DNA of 22,814 nucleotides. Source: a virus. Under the pieces are notes generated by a model. The model worked only from the letters and a program-made list of their open reading frames with translations, ran no database searches and was not told where the DNA came from. Where the stretch lies: positions 1 to 22,814 of the IMG/VR virus record IMGVR_UViG_3300035670_001303, one strand, 5' to 3'. Positions 1-15,607 of the stretch are shown here, piece after piece. Made by a program: the position numbers and the translations under genes. How positions within the stretch are numbered: the first letter of the stretch is position 1; each line of letters starts with the position of its first letter.

Positions 1-31
1 TTTCGTTGTCGATGATGCAAAGACGATGCAT
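1..31 (-). CDS. Partial small ORF, 5' end only
   Basis: The ATG at 31-29 shares its A with the TAA stop of the preceding gene (TAATG overlap). The ten visible codons read M-H-R-L-C-I-I-D-N-E before the window ends. The overlap style matches the other genes of this leftward cluster, which is the main reason to call it. Nothing can be said about product or length. Confidence 0.45.
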   Translation of the reverse strand, partial: MHRLCIIDNE

Positions 32-216
32 TACAACTCCTCTACGATGGTATCTAGTGCTTGGTCCATTACATCCATCTGCAGCATGAGGTCTGCATTG
101 ATGAGGTCTGCGGCGTACATGATGATCTGTCGCTTGGACATGGGCTCATCGAATTCTACTGTCGTCGTGATAGTGCAAGCGTCAATGACGAATGTGACGT
201 TGTAGCGCTTCATCAT
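31..216 (-). CDS. Small hypothetical protein, 61 aa
   Basis: Unrecognised 61-residue acidic protein. The N-terminal part alternates hydrophobic and polar residues (YNVTFVIDACTITTTVEF, likely beta-strands), and the C-terminal half is helical and Met/Asp-rich (DLMLQMDVMDQALDTI). No membrane segment or Cys cluster is present. The start ATGATG overlaps the TGA stop of the upstream gene by 4 nt and the stop overlaps the ATG of the next gene, so it is probably translated by coupling. It belongs to a tightly packed leftward cluster of tiny genes typical of phage early or accessory regions. No function is proposed. Confidence 0.6.
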   Translation of the reverse strand: MMKRYNVTFVIDACTITTTVEFDEPMSKRQIIMYAADLINADLMLQMDVMDQALDTIVEEL

Positions 217-503
217 TCCCCCGTTCCGTAGTTCTCAAGGAATTCTGCAAAGTAGATCAGCGGGACATAGCCGTAGACCCGCGTATCTCCGTCTGGCTCT
301 GCGGGTGTGCATCCAGCAAACTCAGGAAGAATGTCGTTCACCCACTCGCCATTCTTGAAGAATGCGAGTTCGACAGAGTAGGGGAAGCGTGCATACGCTC
401 CATCTCCGATTGCGATGGATACCTCATCAGCAAGTGGATGCGAGATAGACGCCTTGGCATTGATGAGGTTAGTCTTTCCGTAGGACTCTACGCGGGTAAT
501 CAT
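213..503 (-). CDS. Hypothetical protein, 96 aa
   Basis: Unrecognised soluble protein of 96 residues. Aromatic and Gly-rich stretches (DGAYARFPYSVELAFFKNG, VYGYVPLIYFAEFLENYG) look like a small beta-rich fold. There is no signal peptide or transmembrane helix. Its ATG lies inside the ATGA that also ends the upstream 34-residue gene, and its own TGA lies in the ATGATG start of the downstream gene, so it sits in the middle of a translationally coupled leftward operon. Base composition is close to 50% GC, richer than the structural genes further right. Confidence 0.65.
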   Translation of the reverse strand: MITRVESYGKTNLINAKASISHPLADEVSIAIGDGAYARFPYSVELAFFKNGEWVNDILPEFAGCTPAEPDGDTRVYGYVPLIYFAEFLENYGTGE

Positions 504-604
504 GGCAGCAGTTCTCCTGACTCAATGCCTCCCACGATTGCCATAGCAATCAGGAAGCCTCCGACAATGACGAATGATGCAGCGTGCTGCAGGAATGCTC
601 TCAT
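500..604 (-). CDS. 34-residue single-pass membrane peptide
   Basis: Short gene: ATG at 604-602, TGA at 502-500. The product is M-R-A-F-L-Q-H-A-A-S followed by one hydrophobic helix (FVIVGGFLIAMAIVGG, about residues 12-27) and a short acidic tail. The one-pass topology is visible, but the function is unknown. The start overlaps the stop of the upstream 59-residue gene (CCATGA) and the stop overlaps the start of the 96-residue gene. The A of its ATG is also exactly 7 nt downstream of a TAAGGT -10 hexamer inside the upstream gene, so it may additionally be made from a leaderless transcript. Confidence 0.55.
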   Translation of the reverse strand: MRAFLQHAASFVIVGGFLIAMAIVGGIESGELLP

Positions 605-780
605 GGCTTCACCTTAGCACTAGGGTCTGACACTTGACGGATGAGGGAGCGGTAGTAGTCCACACGCTCGCGGTCGATTGCATCGACAGCATCCCGACCG
701 ATGGCAAGGATGAGGGAACGTCGCGCACGTTGCGCGGAGGTCTGACGGGGAGCGATGCCCCGATAGGGGTAGGCGTTCAC
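601..780 (-). CDS. Small hypothetical protein, 59 aa, GTG start
   Basis: Reading the minus strand from GTG at 780-778 gives 59 codons ending in TGA at 603-601. The product is basic: residues 12-23 are Arg/Gln/Ala-rich (RQTSAQRARRSLI), followed by a helical stretch with DAVDAIDRERVDYYRSLIRQ. The GTG overlaps the TGA of the upstream gene (GTGA) and the stop overlaps the next ATG (ATGA), the same coupling seen throughout the cluster, which supports the non-ATG start. No recognisable family; possibly a small helical DNA-binding or regulatory protein, but that is a guess. Confidence 0.55.
   Translation of the reverse strand: MNAYPYRGIAPRQTSAQRARRSLILAIGRDAVDAIDRERVDYYRSLIRQVSDPSAKVKP
611..633 (-). 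promoter_or_regulatory. Leftward extended -10 promoter, copy D
   Basis: On the minus strand this reads GTGTCAGACCC, TAG, then TGCTAAGGT, matching the other copies at 988, 1073 and 1243. The TG-n-TANNNT part is an extended -10 (TAAGGT at 616-611). The position 7 nt beyond it is 604, the A of the ATG of the 34-residue membrane peptide. It lies inside the 3' end of an upstream coding region, so coding constraint could explain part of the match. Confidence 0.4.
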
Positions 781-962
781 TTGCCCACCACCCGATGGAT
801 GACGTAGCGCCGACTCTGCAGCGCGTACTCACCAACGCGGCTACGGTTTGCGTAGCGTGCGTAGGTCATGGCCTCACCATGCGAGAGCCAACGGGTCATG
901 GGGACTCCCCCATAGCGTGAGCGATCATCCAATCGGATGACGCGGTATCCATTAGTAGCCAT
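777..962 (-). CDS. Small basic hypothetical protein, 61 aa
   Basis: First gene of the leftward overlapping cluster. The product is strongly basic and Arg/Tyr-rich (DDRSRYGGVPMTRW, YARYANRSRVGEYALQSRRYVIHRVV), with no Cys or membrane helix. It has a good leader: AAGGGG at 974-969 ends 6 nt before the ATG, and promoter copy C is predicted to start transcription near 981. Its TGA stop overlaps the GTG start of the next gene. No family was recognised; the charge would suit nucleic-acid binding, which is only inference. Confidence 0.65.
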   Translation of the reverse strand: MATNGYRVIRLDDRSRYGGVPMTRWLSHGEAMTYARYANRSRVGEYALQSRRYVIHRVVGK

Positions 963-987
963 TTGCTACCCCTTTCTTTCTACCCCG

Positions 988-1010
988 ATACTAGCACGGG
1001 GGTCTGACAG
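988..1010 (-). promoter_or_regulatory. Leftward extended -10 promoter, copy C
   Basis: Minus-strand CTGTCAGACCCCC then GTGCTAGTAT: an extended -10 (TG-C-TAGTAT, hexamer 993-988) behind the conserved TGTCAGACCC block. The predicted start near 981 gives a leader of about 20 nt holding the purine-rich TAGAAAGAAAGGGG ribosome site of the 61-residue gene at 962. The same TAGAAAGAAAGG leader follows copy A, so promoter and leader repeat as a unit. Confidence 0.6.
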
Positions 1011-1015
1011 TCTGG

Positions 1016-1052
1016 CCTAGGGCTCATCCCTCATGGGGCTTATTTGCCTAGG
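1016..1052. repeat. Paired CCTAGG palindromes between promoters
   Basis: CCTAGG occurs at 1016-1021 and 1047-1052, with a third copy at 1240-1245 next to promoter copy A. The first two lie between promoter copies B and C, in a 142-base gap with no gene. They could be operator half-sites or part of a weak hairpin in the leader from copy B. Six-base palindromes recur by chance, so support is modest. Confidence 0.25.
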
Positions 1053-1072
1053 AGGTATTTAGTTATAGGTAC

Positions 1073-1095
1073 ACCCTAGCATGGGGGTCTGACAA
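1073..1095 (-). promoter_or_regulatory. Leftward extended -10 promoter, copy B
   Basis: Minus-strand TTGTCAGACCCCC then ATGCTAGGGT. The hexamer TAGGGT is at 1078-1073 and the TG is one base upstream of it. It lies just downstream of the 35-residue Cys/His gene and points at the main leftward cluster, in tandem with copy C about 85 bp further on. A tandem pair would let the cluster be transcribed even if one element is blocked. Confidence 0.55.
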
Positions 1096-1104
1096 TGAGG
1101 TCTG

Positions 1105-1212
1105 TCAGGAACCGATCAACTGTGCATCAACAATATGCTCGTTGCATACCATGATGTGGTTCACATTGACCTTGGCGGTATCGCCACAGAATGAACACTT
1201 ACGCTCTGTCAT
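1105..1212 (-). CDS. 35-residue Cys/His zinc-binding-like protein
   Basis: ATG at 1212-1210, TGA at 1107-1105. The 35 residues contain C6-S-F-C9, then C23-N-E-H26: a CxxC-N13-CxxH arrangement able to hold one zinc ion. An AAGGAAG ribosome site lies 8 nt before the ATG and promoter copy A is placed to start transcription about 24 nt upstream, so the gene has its own promoter, leader and site. A plus-strand reading frame over the same bases has no supporting signals. Small zinc proteins of this size in phages are often transcription or enzyme modulators; the target here is unknown. Confidence 0.6.
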   Translation of the reverse strand: MTERKCSFCGDTAKVNVNHIMVCNEHIVDAQLIGS

Positions 1213-1242
1213 TTCTTTCACTTCCTTTCTTTCTATGCCCCT

Positions 1243-1265
1243 AGGCTATCATGGGGGTCTGACAG
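1243..1265 (-). promoter_or_regulatory. Leftward extended -10 promoter, copy A
   Basis: Minus-strand CTGTCAGACCCCC then ATGATAGCCT (hexamer TAGCCT at 1248-1243, with TG-A upstream). The predicted start is near 1236, just before the TAGAAAGAAAGGAAG leader of the 35-residue gene. A degenerate fifth copy (CCCCCATG, two extra G, TAGGGT) is at 1268-1284, immediately upstream. Confidence 0.6.
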
Positions 1266-1294
1266 TCACCCTACCCATGGGGGTATACATACTA

Positions 1295-1516: not shown

Positions 1517-2044
1517 ATGAAAACGTGCATAAAATGTAACATTAGTCAGACATTAGAAGATTTTCCAAAATCATCCAGCAGCAGGGATGGCAGGCATTCA
1601 TATTGTAAGAAATGTATGGTGCAACAAAGAATGAACAAATATGAGTATAAAAAGAAAAGAATGACAACAACCCTTACGCATAAACAATGTAGGCTTTGTG
1701 AGGAAGTTTTGCCATTAAGCGAATATTCAGACTTAAATAAGACATATTGTAAAAAATGTTCTTCATTTTTAGGACACAAAAGAGTTTTAGCGCGATATAA
1801 ATTAACTGTAGACGACTACGTTAATATGTTAAAGAAACAAAACTATGTGTGTAAAATTTGCGGAGAGAAAGAAGAAAAAAGACTTTCTGTAGATCATGAT
1901 CATTCCTGTTGTTCTGGTAAGGAAACATGTGGCAACTGTATTAGAGGGTTGCTATGCTCATACTGTAACAAGACTCTTGGTATGGCTAAAGATGATCCTG
2001 AAATCTTGAAAAAGATGATTAAATACTTAGAGTCTTTTAAATAA
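1517..2044 (+). CDS. Endonuclease VII-like protein with two extra Cys clusters
   Basis: 175 residues. The C-terminal part (about 90-172) resembles the recombination endonuclease VII family (T4 gp49 type): zinc ligands C112-K-I-C115 and C147-S-Y-C150, the catalytic DHDH at 126-129, and N151 directly after the last Cys, matching the family's active-site Asp/His and Asn. In T4 this enzyme resolves branched DNA before packaging; related HNH proteins can also be homing enzymes. The N-terminal half adds two CxxC...YCKKC clusters (C4/C7/C30/C33 and C58/C61/C78/C81) that look like small zinc ribbons and may bind DNA. It is the first gene of the rightward unit, with its own promoter and dyad. The endonuclease fold is likely; the branched-DNA substrate is inference. 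Confidence 0.85.
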   Translation: MKTCIKCNISQTLEDFPKSSSSRDGRHSYCKKCMVQQRMNKYEYKKKRMTTTLTHKQCRLCEEVLPLSEYSDLNKTYCKKCSSFLGHKRVLARYKLTVDDYVNMLKKQNYVCKICGEKEEKRLSVDHDHSCCSGKETCGNCIRGLLCSYCNKTLGMAKDDPEILKKMIKYLESFK

Positions 2045-2066
2045 AATTTTTAAACTTTTGCCAAGG

Positions 2067-2072
2067 TACAAT
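2067..2072 (+). promoter_or_regulatory. -10 promoter element, leaderless start at 2079
   Basis: TACAAT followed by six bases and then ATG at 2079, so the expected start base is the A of the ATG. The extended TG is absent (GG instead), and no ribosome site precedes this ATG. It decides the start of the following gene over the TTG at 2058, which lies upstream of the predicted transcript start. Confidence 0.45.
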
Positions 2073-2078
2073 ATATGC

Positions 2079-2270
2079 ATGAGACCTGTCAAGCCATGGG
2101 ATTTATTAAATAAAGACAATTGGACAATGGAAGAAGTTCGCAATAAAAGACTAGAAATTTGCGGGGAATGCGAAAACTATAATTCTATTGGACAATGCAA
2201 GTTATGTCATTGTTTTATGAGTGCTAAAACATGGCTAGAAAATGCCTATTGTCCTATACGCAAGTGGTAA
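2079..2270 (+). CDS. Small Cys-rich zinc-ribbon-like protein, 63 aa
   Basis: 63 residues from the ATG at 2079; a TTG 21 nt upstream would add seven residues but precedes the predicted transcript start. The C-terminal two thirds carry the pattern ICGEC - CKLCHC - K - CPIRKW. I recognise this style of short Cys-rich protein as common in aquatic phage genomes, ending in a CP...W motif; the six Cys and one His could bind one or two zinc ions. The molecular role is not known to me. It sits between the endonuclease and the lysis-like cluster, with a separate promoter on each side. Confidence 0.7.
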   Translation: MRPVKPWDLLNKDNWTMEEVRNKRLEICGECENYNSIGQCKLCHCFMSAKTWLENAYCPIRKW

Positions 2271-2273
2271 AAT
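2265..2273 (+). promoter_or_regulatory. Extended -10 promoter, leaderless start at 2280
   Basis: TGG-TAAAAT, hexamer 2268-2273, inside the last codons and stop of the Cys-rich gene. The seventh base after it is 2280, the A of the next ATG. No ribosome site is present between them (ATACAT). Confidence 0.6.
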
Positions 2274-2279
2274 ATACAT

Positions 2280-2564
2280 ATGGCAGGACAAAAACCTTCA
2301 TGGAAGTTACGCAGACGAGCAGTATTTGGCTCATTGCTTTTTGCAGGGGCAATCATAGTATATGTGCTTGCTCGTTGGGATGATACTTCTTTGGCACAAA
2401 CAGCAGTATTAGGGGCTTTTGGTCTTATTGGTGCTATTGTTGCTTCATATATTGGTGGGGCTGTATATGAAGACACAAGGCTAAAAAATTTGGGGGAAAT
2501 GCCAATAATTCCTCCAACACAAGTTTCTGAATCAACAGATACAGAATATATAGGAATGGAGTAA
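2280..2564 (+). CDS. Two-TM membrane protein, lysis cluster
   Basis: 94 residues. A basic start (KLRRR, residues 9-13) is followed by two hydrophobic helices at about 14-31 and 40-62, with a Trp-Asp-Asp turn between them, then a soluble tail of about 30 residues rich in Pro, Thr and Glu. This resembles the small two-helix membrane proteins often placed next to holins in actinobacterial phages; it could be a second holin, an antiholin or a holin regulator. The next gene (holin) starts 3 nt after its stop, and its final codons supply the GGAG ribosome site for that gene, so the two are coupled. The family link is from memory, not from a search. Confidence 0.7.
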   Translation: MAGQKPSWKLRRRAVFGSLLFAGAIIVYVLARWDDTSLAQTAVLGAFGLIGAIVASYIGGAVYEDTRLKNLGEMPIIPPTQVSESTDTEYIGME

Positions 2565-2566
2565 AC

Positions 2567-2785
2567 ATGTTTACAATTCACTTTTGGAAGCAGTCAACCG
2601 AAAGAGCACTAAAAACATTTGCACAATTTATTATTGTGGTTGGCGGTGCTGGTGCATTTAATGTATTTACAGTTGATTGGGCACAGACACTAGGACTTGC
2701 TCTTGGTGGCGCACTTCTTTCATACGCAACAAGCATTGTTAGCGCAGGCGTAAAGAAGGAAGACAGCCCAAGTCTTGTAGAATGA
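2567..2785 (+). CDS. Holin, r1t type
   Basis: 72 residues. It starts with an amphipathic segment FWKQSTERALKTFAQ, followed by hydrophobic helices at about 21-37 and 42-60 and a short charged tail KKEDSPSLVE. The order W-K-x-x-x-E-R-A-x-K-T-F-A-Q, a helix, V-D-W, then a second helix is characteristic of the phage r1t holin family. Such holins accumulate in the inner membrane and open it at a set time. The ribosome site GGAG ends 5 nt before the ATG. The usual partner endolysin is not found nearby, which is unusual. Confidence 0.85.
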   Translation: MFTIHFWKQSTERALKTFAQFIIVVGGAGAFNVFTVDWAQTLGLALGGALLSYATSIVSAGVKKEDSPSLVE

Positions 2786-2794
2786 TGTTATAAT
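2786..2794 (+). promoter_or_regulatory. Extended -10 promoter with start-stop leader
   Basis: TGT-TATAAT, hexamer 2789-2794, expected start near 2801. The leader contains AGGAG (2811-2815), then ATG TAA (2818-2823), a one-codon reading frame, and eight A before the gene's ATG at 2832. AGGAG is 16 nt from that ATG, longer than usual, and is better spaced for nothing except the start-stop. Confidence 0.5.
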
Positions 2795-2831
2795 TAAATA
2801 ACAATTCTATAGGAGATATGTAACAAAAAAA

Positions 2832-3278
2832 ATGAACAAGGTCTTGGGCTTCTTCCAATCTAGAAAGGTTTGGATGAGGCCCTTTGACTTTTATGTAGCA
2901 CTTTTGCTATTTGTTGCAGGTTTATATAGTATTGTGAACGATACATGGCCTGAAACAGTAGGAAATGACACTACTGAAGCATTTATTGTTATCGTTTCTT
3001 TATATCTGATGACTGCGGCGGCAGTCATAATGGCCTCTCTATTATGCAAAAGAGCATCCAGACCAGTATTCTCTTTGATGGGAGAACTCTATGGTTGGAT
3101 GTTTGTTGCAGCAGCCTCATTAGCCACAAGTCTTATGTATATTGGTTCAGCAGTATCACATACTCCTGATTCTTGGTGGCTTTGGGGAATTCTTCTTACT
3201 GTATGGGTGGGTATGACTATAGCAAGCGCAATCAGATCTTTTGACCTATTTCTTGTTTATAGGAGTTTGAAACCATAA
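2832..3278 (+). CDS. Four-TM membrane protein, 148 aa
   Basis: Unrecognised integral membrane protein with four hydrophobic helices at about 17-36, 50-70, 82-105 and 114-134, and a basic C-terminus. There is no enzyme motif. It follows the holin and shares a TAATG overlap with the next gene, so it probably belongs to the lysis or membrane cluster; it might regulate the holin or anchor a complex, but neither is shown. The ATG at 2832 is the only ATG in frame near the promoter; an AUGUAA mini-frame lies 14 nt upstream in another frame. Local GC is near 40%, clearly lower than the following gene. Confidence 0.7.
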   Translation: MNKVLGFFQSRKVWMRPFDFYVALLLFVAGLYSIVNDTWPETVGNDTTEAFIVIVSLYLMTAAAVIMASLLCKRASRPVFSLMGELYGWMFVAAASLATSLMYIGSAVSHTPDSWWLWGILLTVWVGMTIASAIRSFDLFLVYRSLKP

Positions 3279-3592
3279 TGGACCCAGCAATATTAGTCGC
3301 TATCATAGGCGTCCTTGCCGCCCCATTTGCCGCGCTCATAACGTGGATGCTTAATAGAAAGAAGCACATTGCCGACATTTACACGGCTTTGAGCGAGTCT
3401 TCACAAACCGCCGTCGAAACTATGCAGTTGACCATGAATGAACTGCGTACAGAGTTGGAAGAGGCTCGTAGAAAGATTGACGACCTTATTGCTGAAAATG
3501 AGTTATTGCGTCACGACCTACACGAACTTAAGAAGCAGAATCAGGATCTAATGGCTGAGATTCGCGGTCTACGCGCTTCCTACGAGAAGTAA
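3278..3592 (+). CDS. TM plus coiled-coil protein, 104 aa
   Basis: One N-terminal hydrophobic helix (about 4-24) followed by a stop-transfer NRKK and then an almost continuous coiled coil from about 40 to 100 (heptads rich in Leu, Glu, Lys, Arg: ELEEARRKIDDLIAENELL). The topology suits a membrane-anchored rod, as in spanin-like or holin-associated phage proteins, but it has no lipobox and no known family was recognised. The ATG shares bases with the upstream stop (TAATG). Its 3' end overlaps the tail of the convergent HNH gene by 65 bp. Composition is GC-richer than the upstream neighbour. Confidence 0.75.
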   Translation: MDPAILVAIIGVLAAPFAALITWMLNRKKHIADIYTALSESSQTAVETMQLTMNELRTELEEARRKIDDLIAENELLRHDLHELKKQNQDLMAEIRGLRASYEK

Positions 3593-3866
3593 TAACAGCG
3601 TGACAATTGCTGCAGCGTACCTCGCATTTGCGTATCTCTTTTAATATAGTGGACCATGCATAGTCGCTGCGAATAAGATTGGAAACACTTGCTTTCTTAT
3701 TATCCTCAATGTGATCAAACTGTAGCGCTACTGCGTGTTCATCATATCCGCAATCCACGCATCCCTGCGCTAATTTGATCATGCCTGCTAGCCTCCACTT
3801 AGCCCCTCTTTTTCGCGCTCGCGGCGAAGGGAAAGCGTTGATGTGCCTATTAGATTCTAAACTCAT
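3528..3866 (-). CDS. HNH endonuclease, 112 aa
   Basis: Zinc-bound HNH nuclease: C36-V-D-C39, F50-D51-H52, then C85-S-N-C88-H89 in the usual order, with the basic N-terminal arm RARKRGAKWR seen in this short phage family. Such proteins nick or cut DNA, as free-standing homing enzymes or as packaging co-factors; no terminase is nearby, so homing is favoured here. I chose ATG at 3866, which overlaps the end of thyX by 17 nt. An internal ATG at 3782 has a better ribosome site (GGAGG 9 nt upstream) and would give a shorter protein that keeps the HNH core; an ATG at 3926 lies too far inside thyX. The last 21 codons overlap the convergent coiled-coil gene. Confidence 0.8.
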   Translation of the reverse strand: MSLESNRHINAFPSPRARKRGAKWRLAGMIKLAQGCVDCGYDEHAVALQFDHIEDNKKASVSNLIRSDYAWSTILKEIRKCEVRCSNCHAVITSRRKRVDRESQPLDPDSAS

Positions 3867-4557
3867 TCCATGCCTTAGCGGTGACGGGGAAGTGCTCAAT
3901 AACTTCTGAATTGATCGCTTGAGCATATTGCTGTATTTCCCATTGTGCGTGTGGATCTACTCGCAGCGAGATGAAGTGCAAAAGAGCATTAAGGCTTGCC
4001 GTCCAGCGCCAGCGAACATACATAGCGTATGCGGGGAGAAGGAGTCTTGCCTGCTCTGGAGCGATACCATCTTCCAATGCTTCCTTGTATAGCCTTTCTT
4101 GCTGCTCTACCAGGCGCATCATTTTAGATGTATACTTGGCGCCAATCCACCCTTTTACTGGCTCTGCGCTGCCCTGCTTTCGATTCTCAGGTACTGATCT
4201 CCATGCGTCAGCGGCGGGGATATAGAATTGCTCGTTTTCCGTTATGTACCGCCGCGAGGACTCATTCCACCCCATTTGTTCCTCAATATGAGAAGACCCT
4301 ACAGCGTGCTTATACCATTGACGAGCCACCATAAGAGGGGCATAGACTTCAAAAGTCATAGCACAATGTCTAAAACATGCATCATGCTTATGCTTAACCA
4401 AGAAGGAAATGAGAGACAGATCTTTTTCTTCTAAAGACTCTACTTCTTTATCAAAACTAACTCTTGCAGCATTGACAACATCAATATCAGATCCAAGAAC
4501 AGAAACAGTTCTAATATAACCATGATCAAGAAGTTCTATCAAAAGAAAACCTTTCAT
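3850..4557 (-). CDS. thyX: Flavin-dependent thymidylate synthase ThyX
   Basis: 235 residues, typical ThyX length. ThyX methylates dUMP to dTMP using methylenetetrahydrofolate, with FAD and NADPH. Visible family features in order: an N-terminal strand and V-N-A-A-R-V-S, F62-R-H64...T68-F69, the R79-Q-W-Y-K-H segment, W97-N-E-S-S-R-R-Y104, E168-Q-A-R171-x-x-L-P, N190 and F195-x-x-L-R199. The usual RHR-x7-S signature is altered: K83-H84-A85 replaces RHR, and a longer loop (VGSSHIEEQMG) precedes the NE-S-RY part, as in a divergent phage ThyX group I recall. The gene has its own strong promoter. Composition changes within it: the first 90 or so codons are AT-rich, the remainder much GC-richer. The HNH gene follows with overlap. 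Confidence 0.93.
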   Translation of the reverse strand: MKGFLLIELLDHGYIRTVSVLGSDIDVVNAARVSFDKEVESLEEKDLSLISFLVKHKHDACFRHCAMTFEVYAPLMVARQWYKHAVGSSHIEEQMGWNESSRRYITENEQFYIPAADAWRSVPENRKQGSAEPVKGWIGAKYTSKMMRLVEQQERLYKEALEDGIAPEQARLLLPAYAMYVRWRWTASLNALLHFISLRVDPHAQWEIQQYAQAINSEVIEHFPVTAKAWNEFRI

Positions 4558-4561
4558 CTCT

Positions 4562-4576
4562 AGACCCTGCGGGTCT
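4562..4576 (-). promoter_or_regulatory. Hairpin abutting the thyX start codon
   Basis: AGACCC, loop GCA, GGGTCT on the minus strand: a 6-bp stem ending 4 nt before the thyX ATG, where a ribosome site is expected. The leader has no clear Shine-Dalgarno sequence in the normal place; purine runs (AGAAGAAAGAAAGAG) are 40-60 nt upstream. The hairpin could limit translation or bring the upstream purines closer. Short stems are common, so confidence is low. Confidence 0.35.
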
Positions 4577-4634
4577 CAGTACCAGGAAGAGGAAAGAACA
4601 CTCTTCTTCTCTTTCTTTCTTCTTATAGAAGAAA

Positions 4635-4663
4635 ATTGTAATGACGTTTATGACACTTGTCAA
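4635..4663 (-). promoter_or_regulatory. Strong sigma70-type promoter for thyX
   Basis: On the minus strand TTGACA (4663-4658), a 17-base spacer, then TACAAT (4640-4635). This is the only near-consensus -35/-10 pair at ideal spacing that I found in the window. Predicted start about 4628, giving a leader of about 70 nt to the thyX ATG. It is back-to-back with the rightward tail-gene promoter at 4699. Confidence 0.8.
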
Positions 4664-4698
4664 GGAATGCAGATAACATTCGTATAACTATGTAAACC

Positions 4699-4707
4699 TG
4701 ATATAAT
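4699..4707 (+). promoter_or_regulatory. Extended -10 promoter for the first tail cassette
   Basis: TGA-TATAAT (hexamer 4702-4707) with no recognisable -35 (TTCGTA at that distance). Predicted start near 4714; AGGAG at 4723-4727 then serves the ATG at 4740 with a 12-nt spacer. It drives the block of tail genes up to the terminator at 6910. Confidence 0.6.
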
Positions 4708-4739
4708 TAAATTAAACTTCATAGGAGCCTTCTTGCAGG

Positions 4740-5084
4740 ATGACACCAGGAAAGTATAACATGATATGCCCCCAAGGGGCTACATTTGCAAAGCAACTTA
4801 CTTATGCCATTGACGGCGATCCTGTTGATTTGACTACCTATACCGCCCGAATGCAAGTGCGCGAAAAGCATACAAGCAAAACAGCAGTAGTAAGTTTGAC
4901 CACTGAAAATGGTGGGATTACGTTGGGCGATGACGAGGGCACTATTGATCTTTATATTACTGATGAAAATACTACAACTATTCCTGCCAAAGACTATGTT
5001 TATGACATAGAACTTATCTCTAGCGGTGAAGTTTATAGACTTCTTGAGGGAAAATTTATTGTTACTCCAGAGGTGACTAGATAA
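4740..5084 (+). CDS. Small tail-tip/baseplate protein, 114 aa
   Basis: A beta-rich domain with the pattern YNM-x-x-x-QGATF near the start, LTTYTARMQVR around residues 30-40, and YVYDIELIS near 90. It belongs to a common phage baseplate or upper-tail adaptor type (BppU N-terminal-like) found before tail fibres in many aquatic phages; the link is from memory. The paralogue at 9020 (118 aa) aligns over its whole length (YNI...QG at the start, YYYDVSI and LLTGTINVT at the end). That alignment supports the ATG at 4740 over an in-frame ATG at 4761. Its stop is directly followed by the TTG start of the next gene. Confidence 0.7.
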   Translation: MTPGKYNMICPQGATFAKQLTYAIDGDPVDLTTYTARMQVREKHTSKTAVVSLTTENGGITLGDDEGTIDLYITDENTTTIPAKDYVYDIELISSGEVYRLLEGKFIVTPEVTR

Positions 5085-5537
5085 TTGGCAGAAGTTACCG
5101 TTACCGTTGCTGATGTTCGCGTAGAAGTTGCTGTTTGCGAACAAGATGTTGTCATCCTTACTGGAGAATCTGGTCCACAAGGACCGCGTGGGTCACAACT
5201 TTTGTCGGGGAATACAGATCCCTCGGCAAGCATTGGTCTAATTGGAGACCAGTATATAAATACTGATACTGGATATCTTTTTGGTCCAAAAACTGCTAGT
5301 GGTTGGGGAGTAGGAGTCCCGTTAGGCAACAATGATCCAGAAGATTTGGGTCAGGTCTATACGCAAACTTCTCCTTCCACAGTATGGAACATCGTTCATA
5401 CTTTAGCGTTTGTTCCAAACATTATTATTGTCGATTCCGAAAGAAATGTTGTAGAAGGCGACTATGAATATGTAAGTGATAATGAAATTACTGCAACATT
5501 TAATTCTGCAATTTCGGGAAAGGCATACTTATCTTAG
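5085..5537 (+). CDS. Tail-fibre-associated protein with GPQGPRG, TTG start
   Basis: 150 residues beginning at TTG immediately after the upstream stop. The N-terminal 25 residues are beta-like (TVTVADVRVEVAV), followed by the short collagen-like GPQGPRG at about 32-38 and the motif GDQYINTDTGYLFGP at about 53-67. The C-terminal 60 residues look like a beta-sandwich (WNIVHTLAFVPNIIIVDSE). These features are typical of fibre adaptor and knob proteins. The 194-residue paralogue at 9377 keeps the same order (GQQGQRG, then GDVFINYATGNEYGWLY). It probably forms part of a trimeric tail-tip structure. No ribosome site is obvious, so it is likely coupled to the upstream gene. Confidence 0.65.
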   Translation: MAEVTVTVADVRVEVAVCEQDVVILTGESGPQGPRGSQLLSGNTDPSASIGLIGDQYINTDTGYLFGPKTASGWGVGVPLGNNDPEDLGQVYTQTSPSTVWNIVHTLAFVPNIIIVDSERNVVEGDYEYVSDNEITATFNSAISGKAYLS

Positions 5538-5554
5538 AAAGGAGATGAGTTTAT

Positions 5555-6907
5555 ATGGCTAGAAAATTTCTGACACACCTTGATATGCAGGGTAATCAGA
5601 TTTTGAATGCTGCCTTCGAAAAACTCGCTACAGATCCCACTACTGGCAATTTTGAGGGCCGCATTTACTATAACACCGCAGACGATTTACTAAAAGTCTA
5701 CGATGGAACAGCATGGATATCTGTAGGAGCAATTACAGATATCAACGGTACGGCAAACGAGGTAGAGGTCACTATAGTAGATGGCGTTGCCACTATTGGA
5801 CTGCCAGGAACAATTAATGCTGACACTACTGGAAATGCTGCAACAGCAACCAAACTTGCTACCGCCCGTGACATTGCCCTGTCTGGCGATGTAACTGGTA
5901 CTGCATCATTCGATGGCTCTGCAAATATCAGCATTACAACAACAATTGCTGCTGATAGTGTTGCGCTAGGAACCGATACAACTGGTGATTATGTCGCTAC
6001 TATTGCTGGAACTGAAAATCAAGTTATTGTATCTGGCGCAGGGACAGAATCAAGAGCAGTAACTCTTTCTACCCCACAGGACATTGCCACAACTTCAAGT
6101 CCAACATTTGCTGGAGCAACACTTGATGGTGTTACTGTTGGCGTAACAGCAGCAAACGAAATTGATACCGTTTCTGGAAATTTGACTATTGATTCAGCAG
6201 GCGGCACAGTAACAATTGATGACAACCTGGTTGTTTCTGGAGACCTTACAGTTTCTGGAACCACCACTTCTGTAAACACAGAAACCATCAATCTTGCTGA
6301 TAATATCATTACGCTAAACTCTAATGCTACTGGTTCACCAACTGAGAATGCTGGTATTGAGGTTGAGCGTGGAGATAGCGATAATGTTCAACTTAGATGG
6401 AATGAAACCGATGATACCTGGGAGGCCACAAGAAATGGAACCAATTATGCTGCTCTAATTCTTGCTGGCGATGATATTCCAACTTCAGATATAACAAACT
6501 TTACTGAAGATGTTCAGGATGTTGTCGGCGGAATGACTTCTGGAAGCAATTCTCTTTCCGCAACATATGATGATAACGCAGGAACGCTTTCACTTGACAC
6601 TACGCTTGCTGGAACAAGTTACTTGTCAAAGACTAGCGGCCTTGCTGTAGATATTGCAACTTTAGAAGCAAAACTTGTAACCGACTCTTTCACCAAGAAG
6701 GCTACTGCAAGTGTAGGAAATGGAACCAACACTTCATTTGCTGTAACTCACAACCTTGGAACAAGAGATGTTCAGGTTCAGATTTACGATAATGCTACAT
6801 ATGACACAGTAGAGTGTGACGTAGTAAGAACAGATGCAAATACTGTAACTGTTTCCTTTACCGTCGCTCCAACTAATGATGCATACCGCGTAGTTGTAAT
6901 TGGATAA
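5555..6907 (+). CDS. Tail fibre protein, 450 aa
   Basis: Likely receptor-contacting fibre. The N-terminus (MARKFLTHLDMQGNQILNA, then RIYYNTADDLLKVYDGTAW) is a familiar aquatic-phage fibre start. A repetitive Thr/Ala/Gly/Asp-rich shaft follows from about 65 to 150. The stretch from about 137 to 254 is shared with the fibre at 7907, including IATTSSPTFAGATLD. After ELRW-like blocks (VQLRWNETDDTWEATRNG), the C-terminal 85 residues form a separate beta domain (VTHNLGTRDVQVQIYDN) of the kind that ends many phage fibres. The ribosome site AAAGGAG lies 10 nt before the ATG. The gene ends at the strong terminator at 6910. Confidence 0.85.
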   Translation: MARKFLTHLDMQGNQILNAAFEKLATDPTTGNFEGRIYYNTADDLLKVYDGTAWISVGAITDINGTANEVEVTIVDGVATIGLPGTINADTTGNAATATKLATARDIALSGDVTGTASFDGSANISITTTIAADSVALGTDTTGDYVATIAGTENQVIVSGAGTESRAVTLSTPQDIATTSSPTFAGATLDGVTVGVTAANEIDTVSGNLTIDSAGGTVTIDDNLVVSGDLTVSGTTTSVNTETINLADNIITLNSNATGSPTENAGIEVERGDSDNVQLRWNETDDTWEATRNGTNYAALILAGDDIPTSDITNFTEDVQDVVGGMTSGSNSLSATYDDNAGTLSLDTTLAGTSYLSKTSGLAVDIATLEAKLVTDSFTKKATASVGNGTNTSFAVTHNLGTRDVQVQIYDNATYDTVECDVVRTDANTVTVSFTVAPTNDAYRVVVIG

Positions 6908-6909
6908 TT

Positions 6910-6951
6910 TTGAGAGAGGGGGGGGGTGGTTATTTGACTGCCCCCTCTCAA
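6910..6951 (+). terminator. Hairpin terminator after the 450-aa fibre gene
   Basis: TTGAGAG, a bulged A and a run of nine G face CCCCCTCTCAA across a loop of about 14 bases, 3 bases after the stop codon. At least 11 pairs are possible. There is no U-run downstream (TCAAAGAAGG), as in many actinobacterial terminators. The next gene's promoter starts 11 bases later. Confidence 0.7.
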
Positions 6952-6961
6952 TCAAAGAAGG

Positions 6962-6967
6962 TAGAAT
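6962..6967 (+). promoter_or_regulatory. -10 element, leaderless start at 6974
   Basis: TAGAAT followed by six bases and ATG at 6974, directly downstream of the terminator. There is no extended TG (GG instead). A possible AAGAAGG ribosome site at 6956-6962 would lie upstream of the predicted transcript start, so either this is a leaderless start or the ATG is served by a longer transcript. Confidence 0.45.
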
Positions 6968-6973
6968 AGGTAT

Positions 6974-7873
6974 ATGACAAAAAGATTTCTAGTACCCCTT
7001 AGTACAGATCACGTTGACTTCAATCTTATTAATAATTTTGCAAATGCAGAAGGAAGATTAAGATGGAATAGTGAAGAGGGAACTCTGGATCTTGGCATGT
7101 CTGCAGATTCATATCAGTCTGTAGGCATGAGTTTTTATATGCCCCCAACAAAAAATGCTTCAGGCGTTTCTATCCCCAAGGGATCTTTCGTTATGGCTAC
7201 AGGAGCGCTTGGAGATAGAATTACTATTGCCAAGGCGGTAACTGATGGATCAACAGATCCTATGTACATGCTTGGTATCGCAGACCATACAATTGCAGAT
7301 GGCGCAGAGGATGGACTTGTTGTTACTGATGGTACTGTGAGAGGAATAAACACATCGCTATGGCCTGTGGGAACAGTCCTTTATCCAAATCCATCTGTGG
7401 CGGGTGGACTTACATCAACAAAACCAACTGCTCCGAATATTAGAACTCCCATTGCAATAGTTCTTAGACAGAATGAAAATACTGGTCGTATTTATGTAAG
7501 AATGACTACTGGCTCCACGTTGGGCGGGACGGACTCAAATGTTAATTTTGATAATCCACAGTCTGGAGAAGTAATTGTTTATGATGGCGTTAACAATGTT
7601 TGGACAAATGATACCGCGCCCCCAGCAGTAACTCCAACAGGGGCCACTCTTCCTGAAAGTGGAACCAATGGACTATTCTTTTATAATACTACAAGCGACA
7701 AATTGTACTTTTTTTACAATCAATGGAAAGAAGTTCAATGGAACGAAATCACATCACTAGATGGTGGAACTTCAGCAACAACAGAGTTTGACATTGTTGT
7801 CGATGGTGGAGATTCATCCACCACAGTTTTCGCCGGAACCTATGATAACGGAGACTCATCTACAATCTTTTAG
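6974..7873 (+). CDS. Tail fibre/tail-associated protein, 299 aa
   Basis: Residues 50-190 contain a compact domain (MSFYMPPTKNASGVSIPKG, FVMATGALGDRITIAKAVTDG, GIADHTIADGAEDG) that I recognise from fibre-region proteins of aquatic phages. A Pro/Thr-rich linker and a small beta motif (GTNGLFFYNTTSDKLYFFYN) follow. The C-terminus repeats Asp/Gly/Ser (DGGDSSTTVFAGTYDNGDSS), a common fibre ending. The exact role, fibre shaft or adaptor, is unknown. It has its own promoter after a terminator and precedes the second fibre gene by 33 bases. Confidence 0.75.
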   Translation: MTKRFLVPLSTDHVDFNLINNFANAEGRLRWNSEEGTLDLGMSADSYQSVGMSFYMPPTKNASGVSIPKGSFVMATGALGDRITIAKAVTDGSTDPMYMLGIADHTIADGAEDGLVVTDGTVRGINTSLWPVGTVLYPNPSVAGGLTSTKPTAPNIRTPIAIVLRQNENTGRIYVRMTTGSTLGGTDSNVNFDNPQSGEVIVYDGVNNVWTNDTAPPAVTPTGATLPESGTNGLFFYNTTSDKLYFFYNQWKEVQWNEITSLDGGTSATTEFDIVVDGGDSSTTVFAGTYDNGDSSTIF

Positions 7874-7882
7874 TTTATAAAA

Positions 7883-7891
7883 TGATATAAT
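7883..7891 (+). promoter_or_regulatory. Extended -10 promoter for the 366-aa fibre gene
   Basis: TGA-TATAAT, hexamer 7886-7891. The expected start, 7898, falls inside the AGGAG ribosome site (7897-7901), giving a transcript that begins with part of the Shine-Dalgarno and then AACTT before the ATG at 7907. Confidence 0.55.
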
Positions 7892-7906
7892 TTAATAGGA
7901 GAACTT

Positions 7907-9007
7907 ATGGCAACCAGAATTCAACTAAGAAGAGATACAGCAGCCCAATGGACTGCAAACAATCCCACACTTTCTACAGGAGAAGCGGGCTTTGTCTCAG
8001 ATACCTCTAGACTTAAAATTGGAAACGGGGCGACAGCCTGGAACGACCTTGGTTATATTCAGGTTCACTTAGGCGATGACACAGTAGGAAATTATATTGC
8101 CACAATAGCCGGAACTGCAGACCAAATATCAGTATCTGGAAGCGGATCAGAAACATCTGCCGTTACCCTTTCTTTGCCTCAGAACATTGCAACCACAAGT
8201 TCTCCAACTTTTGCAGGAGCAACCCTAGATGCCATAACTGTCGGGGTTACTGCATCTAATAAAATTGATACTGCTTCGGGAAATCTAATTCTAGATTCTG
8301 CGGGTGGAACAGTAGAGATAGACGACAATCTTTCGGTTTCTGGAAACTTAACGGTGAATGGAACAACTACAACAGTAAACTCAACAACAATAACAGTAGA
8401 TGATGTTGTTATAACATTAGGTGGGGACACGGCCCCAGTATCTGATGATAATAAAGATCGCGGCATAGAGTTCAGATATTTTGATTCTGAAGCAAGAATT
8501 GGTTTTATGGGATATGATGATAGTTCTGGAAACTTTGTCTTTCTTACAGATGCAACTAACACAAACGAGGTTTTTTCAGGGACCAGAGCGACAATCGATG
8601 CCAACATTTCTTCTGCGTCAATATCATTAAGTCAGGCAGATACAGAAACTGCTGCCTCACACTACTTTGTTGAAACTGGTTCAGACGGAATTATTAGGCC
8701 AAAAACCTTAGCAAATGTTCAATCAGAAATTGTTACAACTTCCGCTGTTAATTCGGCTGCCGCCACAACACTAGGAACTGTTACAACGGGAACCTGGGAG
8801 GCTTCCGACATCGGACTTGCTTATGGCGGAACTGGTGCGACACTAACTGCGGTAAATGGAGGGGTCGTGTATTCTACTGGTTCAGCAATGGCTATAACCG
8901 CAGCAGGAACTGCAGGGCAGGTGCTTACTTCAACTGGTGTCGGAGCACCAACCTGGCAATCAGCATCATCTGGCGGTCTAGATCCATTCCTTCTTAGCGG
9001 AATGTAG
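7907..9007 (+). CDS. Tail fibre protein, 366 aa, paralogue of the 450-aa fibre
   Basis: The N-terminus (TRIQLRRDTAAQW, then STGEAGFVSDTSRLKIG) is a widespread phage fibre-attachment motif with a G-x-G-x-T-x-W-x-D-L close (GNGATAWNDL). Residues about 54-172 align with the fibre at 5555: GNYIATIAGT, then IATTSSPTFAGATLD identical, then DSAGGTVEIDDNL and the TTTTVNSTTITVDD shaft. A region describing DRGIEFRYF, a repeat-rich segment (YGGTGATLTAVNGGVVYSTG) typical of fibre C-termini, and a short end follow. It has a ribosome site 5 nt before the ATG. Its stop overlaps the zone of the next leaderless promoter. Confidence 0.85.
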   Translation: MATRIQLRRDTAAQWTANNPTLSTGEAGFVSDTSRLKIGNGATAWNDLGYIQVHLGDDTVGNYIATIAGTADQISVSGSGSETSAVTLSLPQNIATTSSPTFAGATLDAITVGVTASNKIDTASGNLILDSAGGTVEIDDNLSVSGNLTVNGTTTTVNSTTITVDDVVITLGGDTAPVSDDNKDRGIEFRYFDSEARIGFMGYDDSSGNFVFLTDATNTNEVFSGTRATIDANISSASISLSQADTETAASHYFVETGSDGIIRPKTLANVQSEIVTTSAVNSAAATTLGTVTTGTWEASDIGLAYGGTGATLTAVNGGVVYSTGSAMAITAAGTAGQVLTSTGVGAPTWQSASSGGLDPFLLSGM

Positions 9008-9013
9008 TATAAT
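9008..9013 (+). promoter_or_regulatory. -10 promoter element, leaderless start at 9020
   Basis: TATAAT starting directly after the TAG stop of the upstream fibre gene. The seventh base after it is 9020, the A of the next ATG, with TTAAAT between and no ribosome site. The TG is displaced (TAG precedes the hexamer). Confidence 0.6.
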
Positions 9014-9019
9014 TTAAAT

Positions 9020-9376
9020 ATGTCTTTTCCAGCCACATATAATATAAATTATTATCAAGGTGACAGGTTTGAGTTTGTAATAAGGCCAAAAACCTCCGCT
9101 GGAGAAATATATCCAGTAAGTTCGACAGAATATGATGCTTTTTTCTATATCGATGACCAGCGCGGCGGTACGGATGGAACAGGCACAACTGCATCTACAT
9201 CAATAGGAGACAATGCAATAACTTGTGTGATTACTCCAACAGTTGGCAATTCATTGGTTCCAGGAACAACTTACTACTATGATGTTTCTATTAAAGAAAA
9301 AACAGATGCAAGTATAGTGTATACGCTACTTACTGGAACAATAAATGTAACAGCAGATATTGCTTCGGGGGCGTAG
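9020..9376 (+). CDS. Small tail-tip/baseplate protein, paralogue of the 114-aa protein
   Basis: 118 residues. The order of motifs matches the protein at 4740: YNINYYQGDRFEF at the start, a central FFYIDDQRGG strand, YYYDVSIKE near 88-96 and LLTGTINVTADI near the end. The overall similarity is low but collinear, which indicates an old duplication. It is predicted to be translated from a leaderless message. The following gene starts directly at its stop, the same head-to-tail arrangement as in the first cassette, so the two products probably assemble together. Confidence 0.7.
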   Translation: MSFPATYNINYYQGDRFEFVIRPKTSAGEIYPVSSTEYDAFFYIDDQRGGTDGTGTTASTSIGDNAITCVITPTVGNSLVPGTTYYYDVSIKEKTDASIVYTLLTGTINVTADIASGA

Positions 9377-9961
9377 ATGGCTATATTTGATGTTATTGTA
9401 AATACAGACGACCTAGTTGTTCTTGGCCCTCCAGAAATCATTGAACTTTCAGTTTCTGTCGGGCAGCAGGGGCAGAGAGGCGCGACCTTCTATGCTGGAT
9501 CTGGAAGTCCAAATGACCCAGTAGTCTATCAATCAGTTTTTGGTTCAGAAATTAGTCCAATTTTTGGCGACGTTTTTATTAATTATGCAACAGGAAACGA
9601 ATATGGGTGGCTATATGTGTACAATCCAAAAATTGTGGGGGACCAATGGGACGAGGTTCTTAAATTAAATCAGCCTATATATGCCAATACACATGAAGTC
9701 TCCTTTACTTCTGGCAATGGGACGCTTTCTATACCCATCACAGACATTCTTCCTGTAGGGTTTACAGAAGAAGATCCAGATAAATATATTGTTGTTTCCA
9801 CCCCCATTTTTACTGATCCAGTAGCACTTAGTATAAATTCAAAAACAATAGTGGGAAGCAATCTTCAAATAGTTTTTGATGCAATAAAATATTCATCGTC
9901 TGCTTGGACGGCACTTAATTCAGAATCACTAAATATTTCTTTAAATATCACGGTGGTATAA
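9377..9961 (+). CDS. Tail-fibre-associated protein, paralogue of the 150-aa protein
   Basis: 194 residues. It has a beta-like start, the short GQQGQRG collagen-like run at about 31-37, then GDVFINYATGNEYGWLYVYNP at about 62-82, corresponding to the same two landmarks in the protein at 5085. The C-terminal half is different and longer (SFTSGNGTLSIPITDI, SLNISLNITVV), so the duplicated unit has an exchanged tip. The ATG directly follows the upstream TAG; no clear ribosome site is seen, so coupling is likely. Confidence 0.65.
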   Translation: MAIFDVIVNTDDLVVLGPPEIIELSVSVGQQGQRGATFYAGSGSPNDPVVYQSVFGSEISPIFGDVFINYATGNEYGWLYVYNPKIVGDQWDEVLKLNQPIYANTHEVSFTSGNGTLSIPITDILPVGFTEEDPDKYIVVSTPIFTDPVALSINSKTIVGSNLQIVFDAIKYSSSAWTALNSESLNISLNITVV

Positions 9962-13624: not shown

Positions 13625-13660
13625 AATGACTTATTACATTTGATTAGGACGGTGTTATTT

Positions 13661-15607
13661 ATGTCATTCATTGACGAAAATGGATCAATTACAGATCCAT
13701 ACAGAAACTTTATTCATGTCTCAAGATACAGCCGCTGGCTAGAGGATAAGGGCAGGAGGGAAACATGGGTAGAAACTGTAGATCGTTATATGGATTTCAT
13801 GAAGTCTCATCTAGTTAATAATTTTAATTACCCCGAAAATGACATTAAGTTTGCACAGGTGAGGGATGCAATTCTTAATCATCGCGTTATGCCTTCTATG
13901 CGTGCCATGATGACCGCAGGGCCTGCATTAGAAAGAGACAATATCGCAGCATATAACTGCTCTTTTATCGCGGTAGATAGCCTCAGAGCCTTTGATGAGG
14001 CTATGTATGTGCTAATGAACGGCACGGGCGTTGGATTCAGCGTAGAACAAAAATATGTTGCACAACTTCCAGTAATTGCCGATGAGTTTTATCCCACAGA
14101 CACCACTATTGTTGTTGGCGACTCAAAACTTGGCTGGGCAAAGGCATACAAGGAACTTATCGGCCTTTTGGTTACTGGACAAATTCCACAATGGGATATG
14201 ACTCAGGTTCGTCCAGCAGGAGCAAGGCTTAAGACTTTTGGAGGTCGCGCATCTGGTCCAGAACCATTAAATGATCTCTTCGTATTTACAGTTGAGCAAT
14301 TTAGAAATGCAGCAGGACGCAGACTTAAGCCAGTTGAGGCACACGACATTATGTGTAAAATTGGCGAGGTAGTTGTTGTTGGAGGCGTTCGTCGCTCTGC
14401 TCTTATTTCATTGTCCAATCTTGATGATTTTGAAATGGCTAAGGCTAAGTCGGGTCAATGGTGGGAAACAGAACCACAAAGAGCATTGGCTAACAATTCT
14501 GCTGTATATAACATGAAGCCAAATACCGCTCAGTTTTTGCGTGAATGGCGCAACCTCTATGAGTCAAAATCAGGCGAGCGCGGTATTTACAATATGGATT
14601 CTGTTCGTAAGCATATTGATAAGTTTGGTCGTCGTGATTCAAGCAAGGTAATGGGAACAAATCCATGTGGAGAAATTCTTCTTCGCCCAAATCAATTCTG
14701 CAACCTTACTGAGGTTGTTATTGACGAGACAGATACAAAGGAAACTCTTGCAGAAAAGATTAGAATCGCTGCCATTCTTGGAACATGGCAATCAACTCTA
14801 AGCAACTTCAAGTATATTCGTAAGTCATGGAAGGACAACACAGAAGAAGAAAGACTCCTTGGAGTCTCCCTTACTGGAATCTTTGGCAATAAATTGACGG
14901 GTAAGGTACACAAAGATCTTGCTCCAATGCTAAATGAACTTAGAGATCATGCAGTATCAGTCAATCAGGAAGAGGCAGATGTTTTGGGAATTGAACATTC
15001 TGTTGCCGTTACCACGGTAAAGCCATCAGGAACTGTTTCTCAGTTGACTGGTGTTTCATCTGGCATCCACCCCTGGTATTCTGAATATTACATTCGTTCT
15101 GTGCGTGCAGATAACAAAGATCCTTTGACACAATTCCTCAAGGATTTCGGTGTACCAAATGAGCCAGATGTAATGAAGCCAGAAGCAACCACCGTTTTCT
15201 ACTTCCCCATTAAGGCTCCCAAGGGCGCGGTAGTTACCAAGGATCTAACTGCCATTGAGCACCTTGAGGTTTGGAAGGTATACCGTGAAAACTGGACAGA
15301 ACACAATCCATCAGTCACAGTAAACATTCATGAGGATGAATGGCTAGATGTTGGTGCATGGGTATACAACAATTTTGATTCCATCGGTGGAGTTTCATTC
15401 CTTCCTGCATCAGAGCATTCATATAAGCAGGCTCCATATCAGGAAATTGGCAAAGAGGAATATGAAGAAATGTTGGCAAAGATGCCATCTCGTATTCCAT
15501 GGGAATCGCTTCCATTGTACGAACTAGAAGACACCACTACTGGCTCACAGGATCTAGCCTGCGTTGCTGGAGCATGTGAAGTAGTAGATCTTGTTCAAAC
15601 TGCATAG
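13661..15607 (+). CDS. nrdJ: Adenosylcobalamin-dependent ribonucleotide reductase (class II)
   Basis: 648 residues. It reduces ribonucleotides to deoxyribonucleotides using adenosylcobalamin to make the thiyl radical. All key residues of the monomeric triphosphate type are present with the spacing of the Lactobacillus enzyme: C100 (YNCS) pairing with C347 as the substrate-reducing disulfide, N334-P-C336-G-E338 (radical Cys and its Asn/Glu partners; C347 is 11 residues later as expected), KPSGT at 454-458, and C634-V-A-G-A-C639 on the C-terminal tail for re-reduction. It is about 90 residues shorter than the Lactobacillus enzyme. It needs host B12 and thioredoxin. It stands alone between tail-gene blocks with its own promoter and a terminator after it. 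Confidence 0.95.
   Translation: MSFIDENGSITDPYRNFIHVSRYSRWLEDKGRRETWVETVDRYMDFMKSHLVNNFNYPENDIKFAQVRDAILNHRVMPSMRAMMTAGPALERDNIAAYNCSFIAVDSLRAFDEAMYVLMNGTGVGFSVEQKYVAQLPVIADEFYPTDTTIVVGDSKLGWAKAYKELIGLLVTGQIPQWDMTQVRPAGARLKTFGGRASGPEPLNDLFVFTVEQFRNAAGRRLKPVEAHDIMCKIGEVVVVGGVRRSALISLSNLDDFEMAKAKSGQWWETEPQRALANNSAVYNMKPNTAQFLREWRNLYESKSGERGIYNMDSVRKHIDKFGRRDSSKVMGTNPCGEILLRPNQFCNLTEVVIDETDTKETLAEKIRIAAILGTWQSTLSNFKYIRKSWKDNTEEERLLGVSLTGIFGNKLTGKVHKDLAPMLNELRDHAVSVNQEEADVLGIEHSVAVTTVKPSGTVSQLTGVSSGIHPWYSEYYIRSVRADNKDPLTQFLKDFGVPNEPDVMKPEATTVFYFPIKAPKGAVVTKDLTAIEHLEVWKVYRENWTEHNPSVTVNIHEDEWLDVGAWVYNNFDSIGGVSFLPASEHSYKQAPYQEIGKEEYEEMLAKMPSRIPWESLPLYELEDTTTGSQDLACVAGACEVVDLVQTA

Follow-up and report, generated by a model that had tools for sequence, protein, structure and literature searches.

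The locus analyzed here raises the question of whether a GC-rich stretch around a small HNH nuclease gene, which reaches into the neighboring thymidylate synthase gene thyX, is the footprint of homing with co-conversion of flanking sequence, as the initial annotation had proposed. The window, i.e. the whole stretch of DNA that was analyzed (22,814 bp), comprises an entire IMG/VR record. It is a linear tailed-phage fragment encoding a portal protein, an r1t-type holin, and a B12-dependent ribonucleotide reductase; the last of these (an RTPR-type enzyme scoring slightly below the NCBIfam cutoff) is encoded at 13640-15607 amid tail and structural genes. No close named phage was found among those searched (best thyX match 58%). 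The relatives of the window are uncultured contigs of up to ~100 kb, the nearest being L102. At the locus, rightward genes for a four-TM protein (TM4) and a coiled-coil protein (CC) converge on leftward thyX and HNH (Table 1). The HNH gene shares 65 bp with the 3′ end of CC, and its overlap with the thyX stop is 17 bp. A promoter candidate for the leftward pair lies 78 bp upstream of thyX and is identical in the alignment with L102. Taken as a whole, the GC-rich stretch is best explained as a composite of neighboring genes rather than as a homing footprint, an explanation to which we assign a probability of about 0.7.

Table 1. Coordinates of features in and around the thyX-HNH locus of the window
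Feature	Position	Strand	Remarks
EndoVII-type nuclease gene	1517-2044	+	PF02945, E = 1e-22
95%-identical block shared with L102	2043-3882		Holin, four-TM, CC, and HNH genes
Four-TM gene (TM4)	2832-3278	rightward	
CC gene	3278-3592	+	104 aa; N-terminal hydrophobic segment and coiled coil; GC3 0.54; adjoins HNH in 14/14 close contigs
Small HNH nuclease gene	3528-3866	-	112 aa; start ATG 3866; phrog_2255, E = 5e-23
thyX, FAD-dependent thymidylate synthase	3850-4557	-	235 aa; Pfam Thy1 140.7 bits; TIGR02170 138 bits (cutoff 87.9)
thyX tract, codons 84-225	3883-4306	-	32% divergence from L102, between 5% and 16% tracts; change-point analysis
AT-rich 5′ third of thyX, codons about 1-66	4360-4557	-	GC3 about 0.15
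Sigma70-like promoter candidate, leftward thyX-HNH pair	4635-4663	-	TTGACA-17-TACAAT; 11/12 consensus matches

The base counts given in the initial annotation were nearly exact: 465 G+C of 960 at 3301-4260 (48.4%; ~470 claimed), 59 of 180 at the start of thyX, 4381-4560 (32.8%; ~58 claimed), and 39.8% for the four-TM gene (~40% claimed). The whole window has 39.9% G+C, and the GC excess at the locus is modest. The best local GC-rich segment within 2282-9526 was 3722-4341 (50.8% G+C), with moderate significance (P = 0.005 for 30-bp and P = 0.035 for 90-bp block shuffles). About 3% of all 960-bp windows were equally GC-rich, nearly all of them inside 1-1626. Positions 1-1283, a block of short minus-strand ORFs with 53% GC, are richer than the proposed island, and the sharpest composition step of the window falls at 1283, not at the thyX-HNH locus. 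The long relatives carry one GC-richer minus-strand gene cluster near the module of window 1-1283.

Nor is the GC-rich block centered on HNH, as had been described: its core consists of thyX codons about 70-235 together with the 5′ half of HNH, and in L106, L108, and L007 the best GC-rich segment was thyX alone or almost alone. The reported step inside thyX was present, but at codons about 52-66 according to the family profile, earlier than the codon 90 originally given. The step reported at the start of CC was conspicuous in the window, L102, and L010, but in those only, CC being markedly GC-rich in these three alone. An island forming one block was rejected, as composition and identity boundaries differ on the HNH side. 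The compositional observation was thus confirmed in part.

The step within thyX was strong in the window itself, with a GC3 of 0.15 for codons 7-65 and 0.51 for codons 86-229 (Fisher p = 1.7e-6). The first 50-60 codons favor A/T-ending codons (GAT, GAA, AGA, GGT, TCT), and the rest are more often G/C-ending; since third positions carry the step, amino-acid composition as its sole cause was rejected. Among the tabulated HNH-bearing relatives, the step had the same sign in 11 of 11 and was individually significant in most; it was not significant in L106/L003, L013, and L010. It also occurred in the swapped thyX of L104, which is 46% identical to that of the window, and was absent from thymidylate synthases at 38-45% identity. 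Changes in GC3 larger than 0.2 were found in only 2/42, 0/43, and 0/39 plus-strand genes. As the other genes of these phages have nothing comparable, the transition from AT-rich to GC-richer sequence is a trait of thyX, and most thyX genes in the family share it. Two further candidate causes were rejected: a hidden RNA element in the 5′ third (fold z = -0.65, no Rfam match) and a general translational ramp (the long relatives have a flat metagene GC3). No extra synonymous constraint was detected in thyX, with observed/expected ratios of 1.1-1.2 in both parts.

The thyX step is also independent of the composition of HNH; in L007, for instance, an AT-rich HNH (GC3 0.17) lies beside a GC-rich thyX-C (0.38). 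A step shared by all HNH-less relatives had been named beforehand as evidence against homing. It was seen in some of them (L004, L016, and L051, all without an adjacent HNH) but not in all. As relatives show the step whatever the composition of their HNH, a local GC step beside an HNH gene need not be a homing scar.

Composition also bears on the idea that CC, HNH, and thyX were imported long ago as one GC-richer module that has since been adapting slowly to an AT-richer genome. The GC3 values of CC, HNH, and thyX-C all exceed the plus-strand mean in the window and in L102, as such an import would predict. However, the composition of CC and HNH varies freely among the relatives (GC3 0.26-0.57 and 0.17-0.46, respectively), the 5′ third of thyX lies below the genome mean, which an import leaves unexplained, and thyX has a history different from that of CC and HNH. 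We regard a common import as highly improbable.

The start codon of HNH is most likely ATG 3866 (MSLESN) and not 3926, because the stretch upstream contains two TAA codons in L102. The predicted protein falls into a group of small, Cys-rich HNH proteins and carries an HNH/treble-clef nuclease motif with conserved catalytic-type residues, as indicated by the phrog_2255 match and by 39 columns that are invariant in 12 relatives, including C36, C39, D51-H52, C85, N87, C88, and H89. Its Pfam HNH score was below the cutoff. The AF2 model was confident (pLDDT 86) and had T4 EndoVII, Gme HNH, and GVE2 HNH as nuclease fold neighbors, with weak Z-scores of 3.7-4.5; a sequence search of solved structures yielded no nuclease match. 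Between the window and L102, dN/dS was 0.012/0.185 for HNH and 0.004/0.201 for CC, and HNH is under purifying selection.

If HNH had homed into an HNH-less phage, with CC and the 3′ part of thyX co-converted as flanks from a GC-richer donor, loci without the gene might be expected among close relatives, and the initial annotation had accordingly pointed to HNH-less relatives with an AT-rich 3′ half of thyX. No HNH-less CC-thyX locus was found. CC was present in all 14 contigs with a close HNH (at least 59% identity; the window plus 13), and HNH in every contig holding a close CC relative. Among these 14 loci, there was no optional presence or absence of HNH between conserved neighbors and no sign of a recent arrival; the gene is fixed in the family. 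In contigs with a close HNH, thyX adjoins it, with two exceptions: L104, and the contig of L105/L012, in which thyX and HNH lie at opposite ends in matching orientation and are presumably adjacent. HNH relatives with less than 50% identity sit away from thyX; in the corresponding search, 68 of 80 HNH loci lacked a thyX within reach, and of these loci all except one were distant relatives.

Evidence for recombination at the locus was nevertheless clear, and it includes points in favor of homing. The block shared with L102 (94.8% identity) extends from the EndoVII stop to the thyX/HNH junction. Change-point analysis placed a sharp breakpoint at 3883, where divergence from L102 rises from 5% to 32% (2lnLR 283); this position is 17 bp from the HNH start codon, within the last codons of thyX. 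Beyond 4306, divergence declines to 16%. In codons 84-165, the window and L102 are as diverged as other family members are from each other, codons 131-165 being the fastest-changing part of thyX in the family, and dN/dS for thyX-C was 0.217/1.39. On its right side the exchanged tract lacks a sharp end, thyX-N (dS 0.58) likewise exceeding HNH and CC (0.19-0.20) in divergence. A swap limited to codons 84-225 held only partly, both because codons 7-83 are more diverged than HNH/CC and because of the fast change at codons 131-165. Congruent trees for the two halves of thyX, which had likewise been named as evidence against homing, were not seen. The N and C trees conflicted (AU p = 0.004-0.013, for groups picked after the trees had been seen), and the distance congruence of the halves was 0.60 instead of the expected 0.82 ± 0.05, in a type of test that is also lowered by uneven rates and that the halves of CC fail, too.

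The side on which HNH falls speaks against homing. HNH distances track those of TM4 and CC (r = 0.80) and not those of thyX-C (0.36 vs 0.83 expected), HNH and thyX-C forming the least congruent pair, so that no co-converted flank shares the history of HNH. As thyX beyond 3883 is diverged and HNH distances follow TM4 and CC, the comparisons indicate that the history changes at the junction of HNH start and thyX stop, with HNH on the stable side. This counts against homing, because co-conversion would put HNH and the adjacent part of thyX together; here, the part of thyX next to HNH is the divergent one, and HNH shares its history with AT-rich TM4 as well as with CC. Moreover, what was exchanged does not correspond to the GC-rich block: the 2043-3882 block spans AT-rich and GC-rich sequence and ends inside it. 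The homing interpretation was supported in part, in that thyX is recombinant and HNH borders on exchanged sequence. The model of homing with co-conversion is largely refuted, and we consider it the least probable of all the explanations weighed here.

An exact 27-bp conserved junction was considered as a shared recombination site and rejected, as it occurs only in the window and L102 records. L104 represents a second exchange in the same slot. Its neighbors on both sides resemble those of the window (a tail gene is 80% identical), and at 6655-8039 of L104 a 46%-identical replacement thyX overlaps a GIY-YIG-like gene, between HNH and the tail genes. No relatives of this GIY-YIG-like protein were found besides itself.

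The association between the step and HNH counts against a composite of neighboring genes as the explanation. Among 60 thyX sequences, dGC3 was at least 0.2 in 12 of the 16 that have any small HNH at most 600 nt downstream, compared with 2 of the 44 that have none. In raw form, this association would suit homing as well, although the step also occurs without an adjacent HNH. It would also suit a fixed HNH that cuts incoming thyX alleles and so causes repeated conversion of the 3′ two thirds of thyX, with recurrent and possibly GC-biased repair keeping this part GC-richer and mosaic. The internal mosaicism of thyX, the purifying selection on HNH, and the presence of other nucleases at thyX 3′ ends (GIY-YIG-like in L104, HNH_3 in L128) are consistent with such a role. 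Yet the tree yields a single supported independent contrast (5 in all), such that the association is phylogenetically ambiguous and descent is not separable from linkage; cleavage of thyX by HNH is itself hypothetical. The step is also found in L004, L016, L051, and L053, and mosaic tracts are no less present at a distance from HNH. A survey of 103 thyX 3′ flanks for motifs gave 12 matches, 8 of which belong to the HNH family of the window. We therefore consider recurrent conversion by a fixed HNH unlikely, and it is equally doubtful that thyX 3′ ends serve as docking sites for unrelated nucleases, with the resident HNH keeping thyX mosaic and compositionally split.

Other arrangements of thyX and nuclease genes were observed in the course of this survey. 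In L018 (6885-7247), and also in L024, L026, and L059, thyX is followed on the same strand by a small ORF and then by a small HNH ~200 nt downstream; the small HNH of this group, which belongs to another phage group, is about 48-57% identical over the core. In L128 (2992-4227), an HNH_3 endonuclease gene begins 12 bp past a relative of the L104 thyX (68%), which makes three types of nuclease at thyX 3′ ends.

In the reading of the GC-rich stretch as a composite of neighboring genes, its sharp edge in thyX is the codon-usage step of the family. Much of the elevated GC level would be accounted for by the minus-strand location of HNH and thyX (minus-strand genes were GC-richer in three ~100 kb relatives, with GC3 of 0.36-0.42 vs 0.28-0.32), and the GC-rich CC of the window, L102, and L010 may reflect lineage drift or bias. 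HNH appears to have been inherited with CC and TM4, while thyX alongside has a different, partly exchanged history. HNH would then be a nuclease gene resident at an exchange boundary and most likely represents a free-standing endonuclease of homing type that is old and now fixed. Possibly, it acts, or once acted, like a homing endonuclease; we did not class it as one because it showed neither optional presence nor a co-converted flank. For the exchange of thyX, ordinary homologous recombination via conserved stretches would suffice, because tail genes at a distance from HNH show mosaic tracts of a similar kind. These further tracts diverging between the window and L102 are located at 5668-5823, 5995-6612, and 7012-7504, and exchange in these phages therefore does not require HNH.

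The distribution expected of a mobile nuclease was seen instead, as far as sequence comparison can tell, for the EndoVII-type gene at the other end of the shared block. This gene lies within an apparent insertion relative to L102 (1479-2042, 33% GC), where L102 (at about 855-940) has 18 bp in place of about 565 bp between matching flanks (right, 95% identity; left, 35 bp at 83%, found by blastn). Its stop coincides with the left end of the 95% block, in AT-rich DNA, and L104, L006, and L013 have EndoVII-type genes as well (48-56% identity). It is a candidate free-standing homing endonuclease gene with an empty site, and a better homing candidate than HNH. Being absent at the L102 site, it is comparable to F-CphI, a homing endonuclease with an EndoVII motif (PMC6083498). 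In contrast to F-CphI, no intron was seen near it (no Rfam match in the window), and its activity is putative.

Regarding other known systems, the ThyX of the window is an ordinary member of the tailed-phage proteins (PF02511, TIGR02170), with Thy1/ThyX profile scores well above the curated cutoffs; its clade differs from other tailed-phage ThyX in the strong AT codon bias at the 5′ end. Like the free-standing endonucleases of T4 (seg, mob), which are associated with intronless homing (PMC2988022), the HNH gene is free-standing and adjoins a gene of nucleotide metabolism, and its start overlaps the upstream stop, so that it could share the upstream promoter. Unlike those genes, it displayed no presence/absence polymorphism and no co-converted flank among the relatives compared. 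Nuclease (HEG) genes at exchange boundaries have been described as 'HEG islands' (Barth, Dunham and Seed 2023; PMC10448857), whose main text does not mention thymidylate synthase. The window differs from these islands in several respects: (i) its block measures 1.84 kb, vs >10 kb there, and concerns one phage pair; (ii) its HNH is small and Cys-rich with a sub-threshold Pfam HNH score, whereas the surveyed types were T5orf172 and IPA-HNH; and (iii) L102 lacks the left nuclease and instead has a different HNH-like gene at a distance of about 340 bp. As in HEG islands, however, the high-identity block has a nuclease at each end (EndoVII left, HNH right), the phages diverge outside the block (95% identity within it, 55-93% in later tracts), and its cargo includes a lysis gene (holin). 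The locus is a further instance of a small nuclease gene at a phage exchange boundary, in this case beside a thymidylate synthase, and offers a testable case of a fixed nuclease beside an exchanged metabolic gene.
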